A stretch of DNA of 64,000 bases, taken from assembly GCF_031082295.1 (NCBI RefSeq), contig NZ_JAVHLD010000001.1, forward strand, positions 186,001-250,000. Direction: 5' to 3'. Position 1 is the first letter of the stretch. Each line of letters begins with the position of its first letter. Origin of the DNA: Humidesulfovibrio sp. GTDB lineage: Bacteria; Desulfobacterota; Desulfovibrionia; Desulfovibrionales; Desulfovibrionaceae. A program made the position numbers and the translations under genes. The notes beneath the pieces were generated by a model, which ran no database searches, was not told the DNA's origin, and was given only the letters and a program-made list of their open reading frames with translations. Below, one piece after another: positions 3,901-11,209 of the stretch.

Positions 3901-4133
3901 TGCCCATCGCCATGGGCTTTGGCGCGGGGGCCGAGGCTCGCAGGCCGCTGGGCCTGGCCGTGGTGGGCGGGCTCATGGTCTCGCAGCTGCTGACGCTCTA
4001 CTTCACTCCAGTGTACTACGTGTACCTGGACAAGGCGCAAAAGAAGCTTTCCGGGGTGTTCAGACAAAACAAAACCGCCCCGGCGGGGGACCAGGGCAGT
4101 GACGGGGGGGGGACGGTTCCGGGCGGCGGCTAG
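993..4133 (+). CDS. RND multidrug efflux pump, HAE-1 type inner-membrane transporter
   Basis: This is a proton-driven efflux pump of 1046 residues, the normal length for AcrB/MdtB-type proteins. It has the family layout: TM1 at the N-terminus (MTTLVMAAILIFGVMAY), two large periplasmic loops and two blocks of transmembrane helices. The fourth helix contains the proton-relay pair in VGFVVDDAIVVLEN, and the partner region in the second half reads GIVKKNAIMMIDFA. The GTG start overlaps the adaptor stop. No outer-membrane channel gene is visible, so it is either upstream of the window or elsewhere. The TAG stop shares a CTAG with the stop of the convergent regulator gene. Confidence 0.95.
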   Translation: MNPARIFIERPVMTTLVMAAILIFGVMAYFKLPVSDLPNVDFPTLQVSASMPGASPETMAASIATPLEKEFSNISGIDSMTSTSTLGSTRITLQFNLERNIDAAAQDVQAAIASAQRNLPSDLPSPPVLRKVNPADQPILYLAVSSPTMPLYQVNEYAETLLAQRISMISGVAQVMVYGQQKYAVRVQLDPNQLASREIGVDEVADAVRKGNSNIATGTLTGPMREYTVQASGQLNDAAAYRPLVVAYRGGAPVRLSDIGNAIDSAENNKRANRFNNVPALILAVQRQPGTNTVGVVDAIKKVLPDYVGQLPASVKVETLIDRSESIRESVDDVKFTLVLTVFLVVLVIFLFLRNVSATIIPSLALPMSVIGTFACMLQFGFNLDNISLMALTLAVGFVVDDAIVVLENIVRHTEGGLLPREAALKGSKEIGFTIVSMTISLAAVFLPVLFMGGVVGRLFNEFAVTIVAAILISGFVSLSLTPMLASLMLKKGAHAEHGRLYAATERAFQALLRGYDTTLKWTMVHRRITLGFSLVLLVFTGALFVYIPKGFIPSEDIGQLTGVTEAEQGISLEYMLEHQNRVADIIAKDPNVESFMSLVGAGGPNPAGNSGRLLIRLKPRHERKMTADETMQSLRKKLASVVGIRSFLQNPPPINLGARYTKAEYQFTLQSPNTAELFQYSQALEAHLRELPELQDVNSDLQLKNPQLNLTIDRDKAASMGLTAMQIEDALGIAYGPREVSTIFAPNNSYKVLLELDPKFQRDPLAVNMLYVRASSGKLVPFSTLVRQELGVGPMAVNHSGQLPSVTLSFNLRPGVSLSQAVDKVQNAARDLLPAGFSTTFQGTAQAFQSSFKGLWMLLIVSIVVIYIVLGILYESFIHPLTILSGLPSAGAGALLTLMLFGLDLNLYGFVGIIMLIGIVKKNAIMMIDFALEAQRTQGKDGATAIYEGALVRFRPIMMTTMAALMGTLPIAMGFGAGAEARRPLGLAVVGGLMVSQLLTLYFTPVYYVYLDKAQKKLSGVFRQNKTAPAGDQGSDGGGTVPGGG

Positions 4134-4417
4134 CCGTCGATGAAATCCGAGATGAGCTTGACCAGCTTTTCGTAGTGGCCCACGGGATCTCCCGTGGCCA
4201 CGGACTGCTCCTGGCAGCGCATGACATAGCGGCGCATGATCTGGGCCGTGGCCGAACGCAGGGCCGAGCGCACCGCCCGCACCTGGACCAGTATGTCCTC
4301 GCACTCCTTGCCTTCGTCTATCATGCGCTGGATGCCGCGCACCTGTCCCTCGATGCGCTTCATGCGCGCCATGACATCCTTCTTGAGCGCTTCCTGATCC
4401 TTGACTTCCTTAGCCAT
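4130..4417 (-). CDS. CsoR/RcnR/CstR-family (DUF156) repressor, CstR-like thiol pattern
   Basis: This 95-residue all-helical protein belongs to the CsoR family of tetrameric DNA-binding repressors (RMKRIEGQVRGIQRMI near the N-terminus). The family senses Cu(I), Ni/Co, formaldehyde or persulfide. Cys39 and Cys68 are 29 residues apart, the spacing of the two sensor cysteines in both CsoR and CstR. Copper sensors have His four residues before the second Cys; here it is Tyr64, which argues against Cu(I) and for thiol/persulfide chemistry. ATG 4417 was chosen over the longer open frame because a GGAGGCG ribosome site precedes it and family alignment starts there. It lies downstream of a rhodanese and a sulfur-type reductase on the same strand, which fits a persulfide sensor. 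The effector is inferred. Confidence 0.88.
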   Translation of the reverse strand: MAKEVKDQEALKKDVMARMKRIEGQVRGIQRMIDEGKECEDILVQVRAVRSALRSATAQIMRRYVMRCQEQSVATGDPVGHYEKLVKLISDFIDG

Positions 4418-4725
4418 ATCCGCCTCCTTGTGGGCTCCGGGCTCCCTCGCATGTGAGGTGCGGCAGCACGTCGAATGAAACTCATCCAACGGACCAGCGC
4501 ATTCCCCCTGCCTGCATGGGGTACGCCGACCTTGGCTCACATCTTCTTCTATAACTGTGGCATCGAATGCGGCAGTTGGCAAGGGGAGCCTCTCAGCTTT
4601 ATTCTTAGCCCGCACTCCGAACCGACGGATGGCAGATACAGAACATTTCCTACCAATGCAATCTGAAATATCCAATGTTGGAGAAGAGCCGGGAGCGGAA
4701 CTGCCCGCCCCCGGCCCGTGCGGCT
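4418..4725 (-). other. 308-bp gap between the rhodanese gene and the CsoR-family regulator
   Basis: No convincing gene is present. The stretch next to the rhodanese stop is GC-rich with self-complementary GCCGGG/CCCGGC segments and may weaken read-through. A lone half-site resembling the family operator (GGGGTAC, near 4518-4524) is present, but no full palindrome. The best promoter match for the regulator is a weak TTGCAT-N17-TATCTG, so it may have its own promoter or be read through from the reductase genes. Confidence 0.4.
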
Positions 4726-5835
4726 CTACTTCTTCTTGTTGTCGATGATTTCGCAGTTGCCATCCTTCGTGCACTTGGTGGTGGCTTCCAGGTAGTACAC
4801 TTCCTTGACATCCTTGCGCATTTCGCGGGTCATATAGTAGGCCTCACCGCTGCGGGCACCGGTGGCGCACACGAACACGGTGGGCTTGTCGAACTTCATG
4901 CCGGGCAGCTTCTTCTCCAGCTCGTTGACGGTCATGTTGACCGAGCCCTTGATGTGGCCTGCGGCGAACTCGTCAGCGTCGCGCACGTCGATGATGGTGA
5001 TGCTCTCCGGCTTCTCGGCGACGATCTTCTTGAACTGCTCGGTGTTGAAGGCGCCTTCCACGCCGCCGGTCTGTACCTTGAGGCCGCCGCCAGCCGCGCC
5101 ATACGCCTTGGTCCAGGCGGGCTCGCCGGCCTCGAAGACCTTCACGTTGGTGTAGCCCAGGGCCTGGGCCTTCTTGGCGCTGGAGTGGCTCAGGGGACAG
5201 GCGTAGCCGCCGCAGAAGAACACCAGCTCGGTGGCCTTGTCGGCAGGCAGGAGGCCGGTCTTCTTGTCGAAGGCGGAGTCGGGAATGGAGACGGCGGAGG
5301 GGATGCTGCCCTCAAGGAACTTCACCAGCGGGCGGGAGTCGACCAACTGGAAGTTCTCACCCTTGCTGATCTTTTCCTTCACGACTTCCAGGCCAATGGC
5401 CGGGACGTTGCCAGCCTTCACCCATTCCGGGTAGCCGCCGGGGAACACCTTGACGCTCTTGTAGCCGAGCTTCTCGGCCTTCTTGGCGGAAGAGTGCGAG
5501 AGCTTGCACTCCGGTCCTTCGCAGTAATAGACCAGGGTGGTATTCTTGTCCTTGGGCAGCAGGTCGAGGTGCTTGTCGAACTCGCTGTCGGGGATGCTGA
5601 CGGCGGTGGGGATGTATCCCTGGATGTACTTGCCCTTGAACGGGCGGGCATCGATGAGCATGACGCCCTCGGGGTGCGGCACCTTCACCAGGGGCTTCAC
5701 GTAGTCGATGCCGACGAGGTTCTTGTAGAACCAGTCGGGGTTGGCGGCCTGGGCCTGGACCGTGAAGGCCAGAGCCAGGATCAGCGCCAGAAACACCTGG
5801 CCGATCCGGTGGTTGAGAAGCTTGCTGTGACGCAT
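4726..5835 (-). CDS. Exported triple-domain rhodanese (sulfurtransferase)
   Basis: The protein has 369 residues with an N-terminal signal peptide (hydrophobic residues about 12-28, AQA-type cleavage site near 30), so it acts in the periplasm. Three rhodanese domains follow. The first two are near-duplicates with active loops CEGPECKLSHSS (Cys105, Cys110) and CGGYACPLSHSS (Cys208, Cys213). The third has a canonical single-Cys loop CATGARSG (Cys323). A C-terminal tail carries two more Cys (355, 361). Rhodaneses carry sulfane sulfur as a Cys persulfide. Following a Psr/Phs-like reductase, it probably delivers sulfane sulfur to or from that enzyme. The CxxxxC loops in domains 1 and 2 are unusual, because a standard rhodanese loop has one Cys. 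It lies 75 bp after the cytochrome b gene. Confidence 0.92.
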   Translation of the reverse strand: MRHSKLLNHRIGQVFLALILALAFTVQAQAANPDWFYKNLVGIDYVKPLVKVPHPEGVMLIDARPFKGKYIQGYIPTAVSIPDSEFDKHLDLLPKDKNTTLVYYCEGPECKLSHSSAKKAEKLGYKSVKVFPGGYPEWVKAGNVPAIGLEVVKEKISKGENFQLVDSRPLVKFLEGSIPSAVSIPDSAFDKKTGLLPADKATELVFFCGGYACPLSHSSAKKAQALGYTNVKVFEAGEPAWTKAYGAAGGGLKVQTGGVEGAFNTEQFKKIVAEKPESITIIDVRDADEFAAGHIKGSVNMTVNELEKKLPGMKFDKPTVFVCATGARSGEAYYMTREMRKDVKEVYYLEATTKCTKDGNCEIIDNKKK

Positions 5836-5910: not shown

Positions 5911-6618
5911 CTACTTCGTGCCCGTGTCGCCCTTGTCCAGGGTCTCCACCCACAGGCCGTGGTGATGGCGGGCGTAGTCCTCGGGCACCACGCCGGTGAA
6001 CATGCTTCGGAAGCCGGGCTTTTCCTCCGGCGAGATGGCCGCCATGTAGATGTGCACGAGCAGGCCAGCGAAGACCAGGCCCACGGCCAAATAGTGCACG
6101 GTCACGGCCCAGCCGATGAGAACCGTGGCCGAGGCCGGGAGCAGCTTGTCGGACAGGAGCAGCACCGCGCCCGAAAGCACGATGGCCACACCGCCCGCAA
6201 CCGAGGCCTGGGCAAAGGCCTTCTGGCCCATGTTGTAGTAGCCCTGGGGCGGCAGTTCACCGCCGATGCCCACCGTCATGCGGCCCATCTTGCGGATTAT
6301 CCAGCTCATGTCGCCGGGGCGCACGCTGAAGATCTCCTTCAGGAAGAACCGTGCGCCGCGGGCGTTCACGGCAAGATAGGCGAGGATGCCCAGCACCCAG
6401 AGAACGCCGGCCACCTCGTGGATGACCAGCAGCACCGCTCCGCCAGCGCTGCCGCCGCCGAAAAGGGCGCGCAGGGCGTCGGGCAGCCATGCCCCCAGCG
6501 GGTTCAGGCGCTCGTTCTTGATGAGCCCGAGGCCGGTGATGAGCAGCACCAGCCAGCTGGCCGCGTTGAACCAGTGGATGAAGATGTCGGAAGCGTCGTG
6601 GCGCTTGAGGTTACGCAT
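5911..6618 (-). CDS. Membrane cytochrome b subunit of the molybdopterin reductase (FdnI/PhsC-like)
   Basis: This 235-residue protein is a four-helix diheme b-type cytochrome of the formate dehydrogenase gamma / thiosulfate reductase cytochrome family. It exchanges electrons between the quinone pool and the periplasmic enzyme. Candidate haem-ligating His residues lie in IHWFNAASW (helix 1), VIHEVAGVLW (helix 2) and the last helix, HYLAVGLVFAGLLVHIY. The ATG at 6618 was preferred to an upstream start because AGGAGG precedes it and family proteins begin with this Arg-rich segment before helix 1. It overlaps the ferredoxin-subunit stop by 8 bp, so the two are coupled. A His-rich segment (RHHHG) sits near the C-terminus. 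Confidence 0.9.
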   Translation of the reverse strand: MRNLKRHDASDIFIHWFNAASWLVLLITGLGLIKNERLNPLGAWLPDALRALFGGGSAGGAVLLVIHEVAGVLWVLGILAYLAVNARGARFFLKEIFSVRPGDMSWIIRKMGRMTVGIGGELPPQGYYNMGQKAFAQASVAGGVAIVLSGAVLLLSDKLLPASATVLIGWAVTVHYLAVGLVFAGLLVHIYMAAISPEEKPGFRSMFTGVVPEDYARHHHGLWVETLDKGDTGTK

Positions 6619-7411
6619 GACCGTCCTCCTTCTTGTCGCCTGTCGGCCTCTCGTCCGCCGGCTTGCCGCCATGATCATGCGGACCGGCCCCCGCGAACAG
6701 CTGCCGCCCGAGCATGGCCAGCACGCCGAGGGAGGACAGGCCCACCGCCCACTTCACCACCGGGGCCACAACCCCGGCCAGGAAGTCGAAGGACAGCGGA
6801 TCCACGGGCTGCACGGCCCAGCCATCGGGCGCGGTGGAGGCGATGTAGTACATGTTGGGCTTGGTATCCCGGTTCTTGGCGACGACGCGCACCACCTTGC
6901 CCTGGTTCGCGGCCAGCAGCTTGGCGGCCTCGCTGTTCGGGTCGTTGATGTCGCCGAACACGCGAGCCTTGGTGGGGCAGGTGTCGACGCAGGCCGGGGC
7001 CAGCCCTGCGGCACGCCGCTCAGGGCAGTAGTCGCACTTGTCGGCGATGCGCTTTTGCGGATCGCGGAAACGCGCGCCGTACGGGCAGGCCTTGATGCAG
7101 TTGCCGCAGCCGATGCACAGCTTGGGGTCGATGACCACGGTGCCGTCGAGCGCGTTCTTGTAGGTGGCGCCGGTGGGGCAGGCCTGCACACAGGAAGGTT
7201 CGTCGCAGTGCATGCATGCGCCGGGCTGGAAGTGACCGTGCCCCAACTTCTTGGATCCACCAGGGCCGTTTACAAACGGAGGCACGGCCTCCTTGATCCA
7301 GTTGCGCCAGGCCCCGCGCGAGACGCCGTTGGCCTGCTTGCAGGCGGCCATGCAGCCCTTGCAGTCGATGCACTTGCTGGAATCTATGACCATGGCGAGC
7401 TTCTGGTTCAT
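6611..7411 (-). CDS. 4x[4Fe-4S] ferredoxin subunit of the molybdopterin reductase, membrane-anchored
   Basis: The protein has 266 residues with four cysteine groups typical of the NrfC/PhsB/FdnH electron-transfer subunit: CIDCKGCMAAC (from residue 14), CMHCDEPSCVQAC, CIGCGNCIKAC and CDYC...CVDTC. It passes electrons between the cytochrome b and the molybdenum subunit. A hydrophobic segment near the C-terminus (GVVAPVVKWAVGLSSLGVLAML) looks like a single anchor helix, as in FdnH. There is no Tat signal of its own, so it is probably co-exported with the catalytic subunit. Its start overlaps the stop of the catalytic gene by 4 bp (ATGA). Confidence 0.93.
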   Translation of the reverse strand: MNQKLAMVIDSSKCIDCKGCMAACKQANGVSRGAWRNWIKEAVPPFVNGPGGSKKLGHGHFQPGACMHCDEPSCVQACPTGATYKNALDGTVVIDPKLCIGCGNCIKACPYGARFRDPQKRIADKCDYCPERRAAGLAPACVDTCPTKARVFGDINDPNSEAAKLLAANQGKVVRVVAKNRDTKPNMYYIASTAPDGWAVQPVDPLSFDFLAGVVAPVVKWAVGLSSLGVLAMLGRQLFAGAGPHDHGGKPADERPTGDKKEDGHA

Positions 7412-9615
7412 GCCGCCCCCTTCTTCTTCACGCTGAGGAAGGTCTCATGGATGGCCGAGTTGCCGCAGATGGAGTCGAAGCGGGTCTCCATGAGCTCCAC
7501 GATGCTCGCCCCCACTCCCTTGGTGTGCGACAGGCCACCCGAGATGCTGCCGAAGCCGCTGAGCATGTAGACCGTGTCCTTGCGGATCTTCGGCGTGACC
7601 AGGGCCTTCAGTTCGCCCTTGCCCACCGGGCTCTCCACCAGGACCACGTCGCCCTGCTTGACGCCGAGCTCCTTGGCGGCCTCGTCGTTCAGCCAGAGGG
7701 TGTTCTCCGGCTCGAACTCGCTCAAGAGCGGGTTGTTGGTGCTGCTGCCCTGTGTGACGCAGGCGCTGCGGCCAGCCACCAGCCTGAACTTGCGGGCCGC
7801 GTCGGGCGAGGCCTTGGGCGGGGCGTAGACCGGCAGCGGGTCCAGGCCCATGCCCTCGTAACGCGAGCAGTACAGCTCGATCTTCTGGCTCGGGGTCTTG
7901 AAGGGCTGGCCGTCGGTGCCGCCCAGGGGCGGATTGGGCGGATAGAACACGCCATCGCGCTTGAGGATCTCCGCGGCCTCCGGGAAGGCGGCCAGCTGCT
8001 TCAGCCGATAGGCCGGGATGTCGAAGTCGAAGAACTCGCCCAGGCCGAGCTTGCCCGCCAGAGCCTTCAGGATGTCGAACACCGGACGGCTCTCGTACAG
8101 CGGGGGGATGACCGCGTCGCGCCAGACCAGGCACGCGCCCTCCGCGCCGGACTGCAGCGCCTGCACCGGGTCGGTGCGCTCCATGGCGCTCGGCGCGGGC
8201 AGCACCAGGTCGGCCATCCAGGCCGTGTCGCTCATGGTGATGTCCACCACCATCATGAAATCGAGCTTGTCGATCATTTCGCGGGTCTTCTGCCGCTCGG
8301 GCGCGGTGGCCATGGGGTTGGTCTTGTAAACGAACCAGCCCTTGATGGGGTACGGCGCGCCCTTGATGACCGCGTCGCGGGTGAGCACAAACGATCCCTC
8401 TTCGTCAAAGAGAAGCGGCACGCTGCCCGCGTCCACGCGGCCTGGGGGGTTGTCGTCGTACCAGGGCGGCTCGGCCGGGACCTTCTTGAGCCCCGCGGGC
8501 CGTGCCGGGACCAGTCCGCCCGGACGGTCGTAGTTGCCGAGCAGCGCGTTGACGATGGCGAAGCTGCGCCGGATCTGGGTGGAGTTCTCGTAGTCGGACG
8601 TGCGGCGCCCCGGGTAGACCATGGAGGCCGGCGCCGCGGCGGCCAGCTCGCGGGCGATGCGGGCGATGTCCGCGGCAGGGATGCCGGTCTGTTCCTCGGC
8701 CCACGCCGGGGTCAGCTCCGCCACGTGGGCGGCAAGCTTGTCCAGGCCGCTGACGCGCTCGTCGATGTATTTGGCGTCGTAGAGCTTCTCGGTGATGATG
8801 ACATGGGCCAGCGCCAGCATGAAGGCCATGTCCGTGCCGGGACGGATGGCGTGCCATTCCGAGGCCAGGGCCGCGCTCTTGGTGTAGCGCGGGTCCAGCA
8901 CCACGACCTTGGCGCCTTCCTTCATGATGGTGACGAGGTCCATGCTGTCGGGCGTGACGAGCGCCTCCAAACGGTTGGCCCCGGCCAGGATGACGTACTT
9001 GCTGTTCCTCACGTCCGGCAGGGGCACGTCGCCAAAGGTGTCCACAAAGGCCCGGTTGCCGGAGAGCAGGCAAAGCGACTCGTGGCTGGTGACGTTGAAG
9101 GAGCCGAAGACCTCGGCGAAGCGGTTGACAAAACCGCTCTGCATGTCCGCCCCGGCGCTGAAAAGCATGCCGCAGCGGGTATGCTTGGCGGCGATGTCCT
9201 TCATCTTGGAGGCGGCAAGCTCCAGCGCCTCGTCCCAGGAGATGGACTTCCACTTGCCCTCGCCGCGCTTGCCCACGCGCAGCATGGGGGTCTTCAGGCG
9301 GTCAGGATCGTAGACCTGCGCCACGCCCGCGTTTCCACGCGCGCAAAGCATCCCGCGCGACTTGGTGAACTTGGGGTTCGGGTCGAGCTTGGTGATGACG
9401 CCCTTCTCCACCCGGGCGATGAGCCCGCAGCGGTTGAAGCACATGTCGCAGACGCTGAACTTCGATTCCCAGTTGGGCGCCGTGGCGGCAGGCGCGGCCT
9501 TGGCCTCGGGCGCGGCGACGGCGGTCATGGCCGAGGCCGCCACCGTCGTTGCAGCCGCTCCGGCCAGGCGCATGAAGTCGCGCCGGGAAATCTGACTGGT
9601 GTCGCTATCGCTCAT
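7408..9615 (-). CDS. Tat-exported molybdopterin oxidoreductase, Psr/Phs-like catalytic subunit
   Basis: The protein has 735 residues. A twin-arginine signal (SRRDFMRLAG, residues 10-19) sends the folded enzyme to the periplasm. A [4Fe-4S] site follows with Cys56-x2-Cys59-x3-Cys63-x27-Cys91, and the Cys in SHESLC is a candidate molybdenum ligand, as in polysulfide and thiosulfate reductases. The C-terminal molybdopterin dinucleotide-binding domain is present. Length and subunit set match PsrA/PhsA. Possible substrates are polysulfide, thiosulfate, tetrathionate or elemental sulfur in either direction; the sequence alone does not decide. The neighbouring rhodanese and thiol regulator favour a sulfane-sulfur substrate. 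Arsenate or selenate reductase is less likely from context. Confidence 0.92.
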   Translation of the reverse strand: MSDSDTSQISRRDFMRLAGAAATTVAASAMTAVAAPEAKAAPAATAPNWESKFSVCDMCFNRCGLIARVEKGVITKLDPNPKFTKSRGMLCARGNAGVAQVYDPDRLKTPMLRVGKRGEGKWKSISWDEALELAASKMKDIAAKHTRCGMLFSAGADMQSGFVNRFAEVFGSFNVTSHESLCLLSGNRAFVDTFGDVPLPDVRNSKYVILAGANRLEALVTPDSMDLVTIMKEGAKVVVLDPRYTKSAALASEWHAIRPGTDMAFMLALAHVIITEKLYDAKYIDERVSGLDKLAAHVAELTPAWAEEQTGIPAADIARIARELAAAAPASMVYPGRRTSDYENSTQIRRSFAIVNALLGNYDRPGGLVPARPAGLKKVPAEPPWYDDNPPGRVDAGSVPLLFDEEGSFVLTRDAVIKGAPYPIKGWFVYKTNPMATAPERQKTREMIDKLDFMMVVDITMSDTAWMADLVLPAPSAMERTDPVQALQSGAEGACLVWRDAVIPPLYESRPVFDILKALAGKLGLGEFFDFDIPAYRLKQLAAFPEAAEILKRDGVFYPPNPPLGGTDGQPFKTPSQKIELYCSRYEGMGLDPLPVYAPPKASPDAARKFRLVAGRSACVTQGSSTNNPLLSEFEPENTLWLNDEAAKELGVKQGDVVLVESPVGKGELKALVTPKIRKDTVYMLSGFGSISGGLSHTKGVGASIVELMETRFDSICGNSAIHETFLSVKKKGAA

Positions 9616-9690: not shown

Positions 9691-10008
9691 CTAGTTGCAC
9701 TTGGCCGGCGTAGGAGAATCCTTGGCGTAGTCGTGCAGGTAGGCAAAAATGTCTGCGCGGTCGGCTTCGGAAACAGCCTTCCACTCCTTGACGCACTTGA
9801 CTCCCTCCCACTTGGCGAAGGTCTTCTTCCAGTCGGCCTGTGTCTTGGAGCTGGGGGAAAGGTCGGAGGCGGTGGTTCCGTGGCAGGTGCGGCACTTCTG
9901 CCTGTACAGGAACTTTCCCTTGCGGGCGTTGCCCTCGGCATAAGCCAGGCTGGCTGCGGCCAGGGCCAGGATCAGGGCGGCGATCACGCCAATGCTGCTG
10001 CGCTTCAT
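9691..10008 (-). CDS. Periplasmic monohaem cytochrome c without a Met ligand
   Basis: The protein has 105 residues with a clear signal peptide (cleavage near Ala24) and one haem-binding motif, CRTCH, at residues 39-43. The mature part contains no methionine, so the sixth haem ligand cannot be Met; His92, Cys72 and Cys104 are the available candidates. It is the first gene of the run and sits 75 bp before the molybdopterin gene, so it is the likely soluble electron carrier to or from the reductase. The start follows a good AGGAGA-type ribosome site. The role is inferred from position. Confidence 0.9.
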   Translation of the reverse strand: MKRSSIGVIAALILALAAASLAYAEGNARKGKFLYRQKCRTCHGTTASDLSPSSKTQADWKKTFAKWEGVKCVKEWKAVSEADRADIFAYLHDYAKDSPTPAKCN

Positions 10009-10085: not shown

Positions 10086-10114
10086 TATATACCCATACGG
10101 GGTACCAGTGTCAA
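10086..10114 (-). promoter_or_regulatory. Sigma-70-type promoter of the cytochrome c/reductase/rhodanese run
   Basis: On the minus strand a perfect TTGACA (10114-10109) is followed after exactly 17 bp by TATATA (10091-10086). It reads into the cytochrome c gene 78 bp away. The spacer carries the inverted repeat listed separately, so bound repressor would block polymerase. Confidence 0.8.
10090..10104. promoter_or_regulatory. Candidate operator for the CsoR/CstR-like repressor
   Basis: The 15-bp element reads TACCC-ATACG-GGGTA, an interrupted palindrome with 5-bp arms and a G/C-tract core. This is the shape of CsoR-family operators. It fills most of the promoter spacer and touches the -10 box. 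The only CsoR-family gene in the window is the last gene of the run that this promoter drives, which suggests autoregulation. Binding is inferred, not shown. Confidence 0.72.
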
Positions 10115-10205: not shown

Positions 10206-10234
10206 TTGACGTCACGCACAAAAATAAATATACA
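10206..10234 (+). promoter_or_regulatory. Sigma-70-type promoter of the kinase-like gene
   Basis: TTGACG (10206-10211), a 17-bp spacer and TATACA (10229-10234) lie in an AT-rich patch. They are followed by GGAGG at 10251-10255 and ATG at 10262. The promoter diverges from the reductase promoter about 90 bp away. Confidence 0.65.
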
Positions 10235-10261: not shown

Positions 10262-11209
10262 ATGCCCGAATCTGTGCGAGAACTTGTTGAACGCTTCAAG
10301 CCGCCTGTGAGCGTGCGCACCTACGGAACCGTGTTCACGGACACCACGGAGTTCATGAACATCGGCTACGGGGATGTCATCAAGCTGGGCGGGAGGTACT
10401 ACCTCGTTCTTGGCGACGAGCGCGAGCGCCGCTTCGGCATGGAGGACCCGAAGTTCTGGGTCAAGCGCTGCGTGGAAATGGAATCCGGACAGTACCGAAT
10501 CCTGAAGCTGGAGTTTCAGGAGAGCTTCGACCAACACATCGGGTCGCTGACGATCACCTGCCACCGCAGCGCAGCCAAGGAGGCGCGTATTTTGCGGCTC
10601 GTCGCCGGGGACATGCGCTTCATGCAAGGCCTGGGCGTTCGCGACGAGCGCGGAAACCTTGCGCGCGTGCTCGAGCGCGTGGCCGGGCGCAGGCTGGACC
10701 TCAACATCGAGGACCTGCACCAGAGCCACCGCGAGTACTTCCAGGAGACCTTTCCCGGCATCCTGCAACGCTTCATCGGGGCGTGCAGGGCCATCCACCA
10801 CCTGCACCAGCACGGCGAAACCCACGGCGACATCCGCCGCGACCACCTCTACGTGGACCACAAGACTGGCGAATACTGCTGGATCGACTTCGACTACGGC
10901 TACGACTCGGTGGAGAACCCCTTCGGCCTGGACCTCTTCGGCCTGGGGAACATTCTGTCCTTCATCACCGGCAAGGGCGTGCACACCATCCAGGACGTGG
11001 ACGCCGAGGCCCTGGGCATCACTGAAGCCGACTGCGCCCTGTTCTTCCGGCATCGCGTGGTGAACCTGCGCAAGCTGTTCCCGTACATCCCCGCGGACCT
11101 GAACAACGTGCTCATGCACTACTCGGCGCAGTCGGAAGTCTTCTACGAATCCGTGCCGGAGCTGCTGGCCGACCTCGAACCCTGCCTAGAGAACCTGCGC
11201 CGGGCCTGA
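10262..11209 (+). CDS. Protein-kinase-fold protein of unknown substrate
   Basis: The 315-residue soluble protein has recognisable kinase-like signatures. These are a beta-3-like lysine in YRILKLEF (Lys82), a helix-C-like Glu in AAKEARIL (Glu108), a catalytic loop HGDIRRDHLYVD (residues 188-199, Asp190) and a metal-binding WIDFDYG (207-213), where DFD replaces DFG. It resembles aminoglycoside-phosphotransferase or RIO-type folds more than classical Ser/Thr kinases. A universal stress protein gene follows after 33 bp on the same strand, suggesting a stress-linked pair. Whether it phosphorylates proteins or small molecules is unknown. Confidence 0.75.
   Translation: MPESVRELVERFKPPVSVRTYGTVFTDTTEFMNIGYGDVIKLGGRYYLVLGDERERRFGMEDPKFWVKRCVEMESGQYRILKLEFQESFDQHIGSLTITCHRSAAKEARILRLVAGDMRFMQGLGVRDERGNLARVLERVAGRRLDLNIEDLHQSHREYFQETFPGILQRFIGACRAIHHLHQHGETHGDIRRDHLYVDHKTGEYCWIDFDYGYDSVENPFGLDLFGLGNILSFITGKGVHTIQDVDAEALGITEADCALFFRHRVVNLRKLFPYIPADLNNVLMHYSAQSEVFYESVPELLADLEPCLENLRRA

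Follow-up and report, generated by a model that had tools for sequence, protein, structure and literature searches.

The window, a 64,000-nucleotide stretch of the genome of a Humidesulfovibrio species that we take to be a sulfate reducer of the Desulfovibrionaceae, carries on its minus strand a run of genes resembling Phs/Psr-type reductase operons, led by a gene for a small c-type cytochrome and closed by one for a CsoR-family regulator. The features, from the promoter to the end of the run, are the following:

10109 to 10114, minus strand: -35 element TTGACA, read from the sequence; perfect consensus
10108 to 10092, minus strand: spacer CTGGTACCCCGTATGGG, 17 bp between TTGACA and TATATA
10090 to 10104, minus strand: predicted operator TACCC-N5-GGGTA, TACCCCGTATGGGTA, read from the sequence and conserved in the operon loci
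10086 to 10091, minus strand: -10 element TATATA, whose first TA is part of the operator's right arm
9691 to 10008, minus strand: first gene, small c-type cytochrome (PF13442, 1.5e-07), signal peptide judged by eye
7408 to 9615, minus strand: PhsA/PsrA-like molybdopterin oxidoreductase (NCBIfam PRK15488 PhsA, 547 bits; 2vpw, 392 bits)
6611 to 7411, minus strand: 4Fe-4S electron-transfer subunit (PF13247, 7.4e-27)
5911 to 6678, minus strand: cytochrome b561-type membrane subunit (PF01292, 6.4e-22)
4726 to 5835, minus strand: triple-rhodanese protein (three PF00581 stretches, 1.6e-43), export judged by eye
4509 to 4523, minus strand: second, degenerate site TACCCCATGCAGGCA with two mismatches, 106 bp upstream of the regulator ATG
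4130 to 4417, minus strand: putative CsoR-family repressor, CstR-like by motif (C39, Y64, C68; PF02583, 4.2e-24)
4074 to 4100, minus strand: terminator-like hairpin with a T-rich tail after the regulator gene, from a hairpin scan (weak)

The A subunit falls short of the curated cut-off of the PhsA model (547 against 694 bits), and its best solved relative, 2vpw, was deposited as a thiosulfate reductase; from these two matches, we infer that the enzyme would act on thiosulfate or polysulfide. The best model for the cytochrome b subunit is formate-dehydrogenase gamma, below cut-off. In the sulfate reducer Oceanidesulfovibrio marinus, phsA is reportedly upregulated with thiosulfate (PMC10989961). 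Between the triple-rhodanese gene and the CsoR-family gene lies a gap of 308 bp. The hairpin beyond the latter is weak evidence for a terminator, because the region holds 5 hairpins where 4.3 would be expected from shuffles.

On the plus strand, a divergent promoter-like sequence, TTGACG-N17-TATACA, occupies window positions 10206-10234 before a gene at 10262, and it has no operator. That gene gives a weak Kdo/WaaP-kinase match, below cut-off, and similar promoter-like sequence was seen by eye at two other loci (L006 and L007).

The promoter-operator element

Read across the whole element on the plus strand, positions 10086 to 10114 are TATATACCCATACGGGGTACCAGTGTCAA. The promoter TTGACA-N17-TATATA and the palindrome TACCC-N5-GGGTA at 10090-10104, both proposed in the initial annotation, are confirmed base for base on the minus strand, and their assignment to the reductase gene run is supported; the operator lies 96 bp before the ATG of the cytochrome c gene. 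Two of the original descriptions call for some trimming. The operator had been placed exactly inside the spacer; in fact 13 of its 15 bp lie there and 2 bp overlap the -10 hexamer, because the right arm supplies the first two bases of the latter. The promoter had likewise been called near-consensus, which does justice to the perfect -35 and to an overall match of 10/12, but not to the weak -10, at only 4/6 and without its final T. Because our consensus scan requires that final T, it does not list this promoter.

A palindrome with C/G-run half-sites, situated between -35 and -10 of a promoter, is what is expected of a CsoR-family operator. A repressor bound there would most naturally act sterically.

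Within its own genome, the bare palindrome is by itself unremarkable, because the exact pattern TACCC-N5-GGGTA, which occurs once in the window, is found at 3 places in 3.45 Mb and its reversed control at 2. On these counts one might suppose a chance palindrome that happens to lie in a promoter. The site in the window is, nevertheless, the genome's only exact palindrome preceded by TTGAC at 5 nt; neither of the other two (L002 and L003) has a hexamer resembling TTGACA at the appropriate spacing, and when the 250 bp upstream are shuffled 20,000 times by mononucleotide, an exact match arises in 0.015% of cases. Stronger proof than this rarity comes from conservation across genera (below), which makes a chance origin of the element very unlikely; with the site kept in 50/50 operon loci of the regulator-bearing kind, that explanation is untenable.

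Equally overstated was the expectation that the whole regulon could be found by searching for this operator. With up to one mismatch allowed, the bare pattern matches 24 places in the genome and is outnumbered by its reversed control at 89, so that a regulon search needs promoter context or conservation. A near-match at window positions 5419-5433 falls inside the triple-rhodanese gene. When the context of the 24 places was checked, two beyond the site described here seemed meaningful, one at a rhodanese gene (C36:5109) and one at a HlyD-type adaptor (C66:128615).

Conservation of the site and its probable regulator across the order

Our comparison sample comprises 297 genomes of the order. In 44 of them we find the motif TTGAC-N5-TACCC-N5-GGGTA, at 46 places in all, as against 1 match for the reversed control; at 39 of these places, a match to the operon's cytochrome gene follows within 300 bp. 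The remaining seven are in genomes G183, G191 (a second site), G287, G251 (two), G110 and G146. The G183 match (L062), in a genome without the regulator, was taken as chance.

In 50 operon loci, the cytochrome gene is readable (48 stretches from genomes of the order, plus L010 and L031). Their best upstream match is exact in 44 and has one mismatch in 6, and the operator begins 72-246 bp before the aligned start of the cytochrome gene. TTGAC stands at its usual distance, five bases before the operator, in 48/50, at the best match itself in 46 and via another site with one mismatch in G170 and G236; in the G148 and G138 operon loci, the palindrome lacks a TTGAC at that distance. Among the chosen sites the arms TACCC and GGGTA are invariant, partly by virtue of best-match choice, and the -35 is strongly conserved. 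Of the -10, only TA(T) is kept to a similar degree, with T 50, A 50, T 45, A 32, T 30 and G 28 of 50. Conservation declines gradually on either side; a T 24 bases before the operator still carries 1.1 bits, and positions out to 28 bases before it retain 0.3-0.7 bits. The combination of a strong -35, a kept operator and a poor -10 fits a promoter under repression; an activator, for which so weak a -10 would allow, perhaps aids it.

The cytochrome gene was found in 78/297 genomes (E <= 1e-12). The 48 of these that also have the regulator, from 11 genera, all carry the upstream operator at <=1 mismatch (47 from the upstream survey, plus G289, which was pieced together from split contigs). In the other 30, no regulator was found, and only G250 has the operator; with G250 set aside, the operator was found in 0/29 genomes on searching 700 bp upstream of each of 31 gene copies at <=1 mismatch. 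Fifteen operon loci without a neighbouring regulator match (L015-L028 and L032) likewise have no operator in 400 bp at <=2 mismatches, a comparison that is not independent of the first, as 12/15 coincide with the 29 regulator-less genomes.

A profile search of the window's genome finds only one PF02583 protein, the product of 4130-4417. Its orthologue was found in 66/297 genomes at a cut of E 1.5e-17, chosen after the list had been inspected; the next match stands at 8.1e-16, and G293, G120 and G148, among the lowest members of the set, deviate at position 64 or 68. The weakest regulator counted in the 48-versus-29 comparison has an E of 2.5e-21 (G138). The exact promoter-operator motif is present in 42/66 genomes with the regulator, leaving 24/66 that lack it, and in 2/231 without the regulator. 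Because the genomes are related and genome-level p-values overstate their independence, the count by genus, 9/13 with the regulator versus 1/42 without, is the fairer one.

That the operator is kept where the repressor accompanies the reductase-like operon makes the palindrome very probably the landing site of the CsoR-family repressor. The suggestion that the 4130-4417 protein is its reader thus gains considerably from the co-occurrence (48/48 versus 0/29, G250 aside) and from the lack of any second PF02583 protein found in the genome. One could imagine instead that a different, unlinked regulator reads the palindrome and that the CsoR-family gene is a bystander, as the presence of the site in G250 would allow; that genome, in which the operator and the start of the operon are present, is a draft 87% complete, and its contig ends in the FeS gene. 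The co-occurrence makes such a bystander highly unlikely, as do the CsoR-family kind of the pattern and the exact sites that stand directly before the regulator's own gene in G094, G114, G251 and G293.

More generally, 32/69 regulator genes have a match at <=2 mismatches within 220 bp, compared with about 9% in mononucleotide shuffles, and TACCCCATGCAGGCA at 4523-4509 is a possible weak autoregulatory operator. Where the operon is not close by, the surroundings of a regulator gene often show no clear site. In G211, of the window's genus, there are two regulator copies (on C85 and C2), 89% and 83% identical to that of the window, only one of which adjoins the reductase operon.

The predicted signal and other candidate targets

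The regulator, at 95 residues, belongs to the CsoR/RcnR family PF02583 (85.2 bits against a gathering score of 22.8). Copper CsoR proteins are defined by a Cys-His-Cys set of copper ligands. Across 69 aligned regulator sequences, the two cysteines are kept (C39 in 69/69, C68 in 68/69), and the position of the ligand His, Y64 here, is Tyr in 66/69 and His in 0/69. The original label of CsoR-type is therefore apt as to the protein family and the kind of operator, but the motif is C-Y-C and not C-H-C. A copper CsoR was accordingly rejected as first choice, His being missing in 69/69. Two cysteines at the CsoR ligand places with no His between them, encoded next to sulfur-transfer genes (here the adjoining triple rhodanese), are what one expects of a CstR. 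To judge by these residues, with C-Y-C in place of C-H-C, the regulator is unlikely to be a copper sensor and probably responds to reactive sulfur.

A copper (or other metal) CsoR, by which the metal would switch the operon, does find some footing in whole-sequence scores. The closest solved relative is the copper CsoR 4m1p, at 61 bits as against 41 bits for 7mq1, a weak test in that a single CstR sequence was compared; 7mq2, its sequence twin, is called CstR in a review (PMC9774590). The best NCBIfam match is RicR, at 66 of 175 bits and so far below cut-off, and the operator arms are similar to those of CsoR operators. The absence of His from every orthologue, however, makes a metal sensor quite improbable, and so does the comparison with a second set of CsoR-family genes. 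The shorter-gap pattern TTGAC-N4-TACCC-N5-GGGTA has 11 sites in 10/297 genomes, 8/11 of them with a CsoR-family gene at most about 110 bp away, and the genes beside these sites (L035, L038-L040, L042-L045) have the His in 7/8, L045 being cut short. The comparison included a ninth sequence, L070, which is the regulator of G251 itself and carries Tyr. Nor is there a copper pump among the identified targets, the pump of the HlyD adaptor being of unassigned substrate.

Copper-type and sulfur-type regulators may, then, use different registers of operator and -35, TTGAC-N4 and TTGAC-N5, respectively.

The other candidate targets are for the most part sulfur genes. A one-mismatch site lies 41-45 bp before the aligned start of a rhodanese gene in 3/10 loci (the window's own genome, G084 and G005); a second rhodanese copy in the window's genome has no site. 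In G084, DsrE2 is a candidate target through a site with one-base-shorter spacing; in G191, it is a DUF4405 membrane protein, and in G146 a tetrathionate-reductase-family octaheme cytochrome behind an exact promoter-operator motif. This octaheme c-type cytochrome (L187, about 7675-9400; TIGR04315, 596 bits) has an in-frame TGA, SVNNF-U-INIQ.

The HlyD-type adaptor loci are not at obvious sulfur genes. Of the nine orthologous loci (L197, the adaptor of the window's own genome, L069 and L228-L234), 7/9 have TTGAC at the same distance, with 0-2 mismatches in arms that are degenerate but palindromic, such as TACTC...GAGTA, and these sites are perhaps read by the same or a sister regulator.

An in-frame-TGA rhodanese lies between the triple rhodanese and the regulator in 32/47 operon loci (for example L146, 7248-8256 reverse-complement, as well as L135 and L152). 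The context of the TGA is conserved, as in YCRSFR-U-LRSSIAA, and the L135 protein extends into a thioredoxin-like domain. This gene probably encodes a selenocysteine rhodanese; in the operon of the window, no such motif was found.

Granted that the site belongs to this regulator, its signal might be another thiol-reactive cue (disulfide stress, oxygen or an electrophile) and not persulfide specifically, since the two cysteines alone are diagnostic. In Thermus thermophilus, the CstR-like TTHA1953, the nearest functional precedent, is weakened by disulfide formation with Cu(II) or H2O2, and NaHS did not abolish its DNA binding (PMC10318464); this insensitivity counts against release by sulfur. 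The candidate targets, which include rhodaneses, a sulfur carrier and the Phs/Psr-type reductase, nonetheless point toward sulfur, and we regard a cue of the more general kind as a serious but rather unlikely alternative.

A candidate sulfur switch and its known relatives

From what is directly visible, namely the anatomy of the element, its conservation, its co-occurrence with the regulator and the missing His, we infer binding, repression, effector and transcription start as follows. With a probability that we put at about 0.72, the palindrome serves as operator for the CstR-like repressor of the CsoR family encoded at the end of the run, and reactive sulfur species relieve the block. The repressor, its thiols reduced, would bind TACCC-N5-GGGTA, the half-sites of which are about one helical turn apart, and from its position between -35 and -10 would exclude RNA polymerase. 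As sulfane sulfur (persulfide or polysulfide) accumulates, C39 and C68 of neighbouring subunits would become cross-linked or persulfidated, and the modified repressor would let go of the DNA. The released promoter would then give rise to the thiosulfate or polysulfide reductase of Phs/Psr type, together with the rhodanese sulfur-transfer protein. Through the weaker site before its gene, the regulator may in addition adjust its own expression.

The candidate switch consists of one 95-residue protein, one 15-bp operator and one operon, in eleven sampled genera, with sulfane sulfur and not copper as the predicted signal. To our knowledge, how sulfate reducers choose thiosulfate or polysulfide over sulfate is poorly understood. 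That CsoR-family operators lie in promoters, and that sulfur-sensing members of the family control oxidation or detoxification, is already known. Full-text searches of the open-licence literature turned up no title or abstract opening that connects a regulator of the CsoR/CstR kind with a Phs/Psr operon. It is perhaps an even bet that, in eleven genera or more, the C-Y-C proteins of the Desulfovibrionaceae form a CsoR-family subclass that acts as a sulfane-sulfur switch; the operon under its control would be of Phs/Psr type, reductive and energy-conserving, and would in many cases include a probable selenocysteine rhodanese. If so, a regulator class known from detoxification and sulfur oxidation would now be placed on the respiration of sulfur compounds.

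The copper CsoR proteins of M. tuberculosis and Geobacillus are members of the same family, but have a Cys-His-Cys site (with His in the 4m1p alignment) where no His is found here. The M. tuberculosis CsoR operator also overlaps the -35/-10 region (PMC10318464), and the copper CsoR operators quoted there are longer and more G/C-rich than the operator described here. The PhsABC and PsrABC enzymes share with this run the A-subunit family, the FeS subunit and the cytochrome b subunit; the run differs in its extra cytochrome c and triple rhodanese and in an A subunit that stays below the PhsA cut-off.

Nearer to the regulator itself is CstR of Staphylococcus aureus (cst operon), a CsoR-family protein that is said to sense per- and polysulfides (PMC5480029) and whose cysteines, Cys31 and Cys60, are 29 residues apart (PMC9774590), the spacing of C39 and C68 here; each has one main sulfur operon. 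In S. aureus, the operon serves sulfide oxidation and detoxification, whereas here it encodes a Phs/Psr-type reductase in sulfate reducers. TTHA1953 likewise has C39 and C68, both needed for its redox response, and represses energy-linked Sox genes and cytochrome c genes; its authors place it nearest CstR by function and closer to CsoR than to CstR by sequence (PMC10318464). Its consensus TACNNTACNNNNGTANNGTA, with half-sites that differ from those here, its location far from its targets and the oxidative pathway under its control set it apart from the present regulator, which is encoded at the end of the reductive operon it is predicted to govern.
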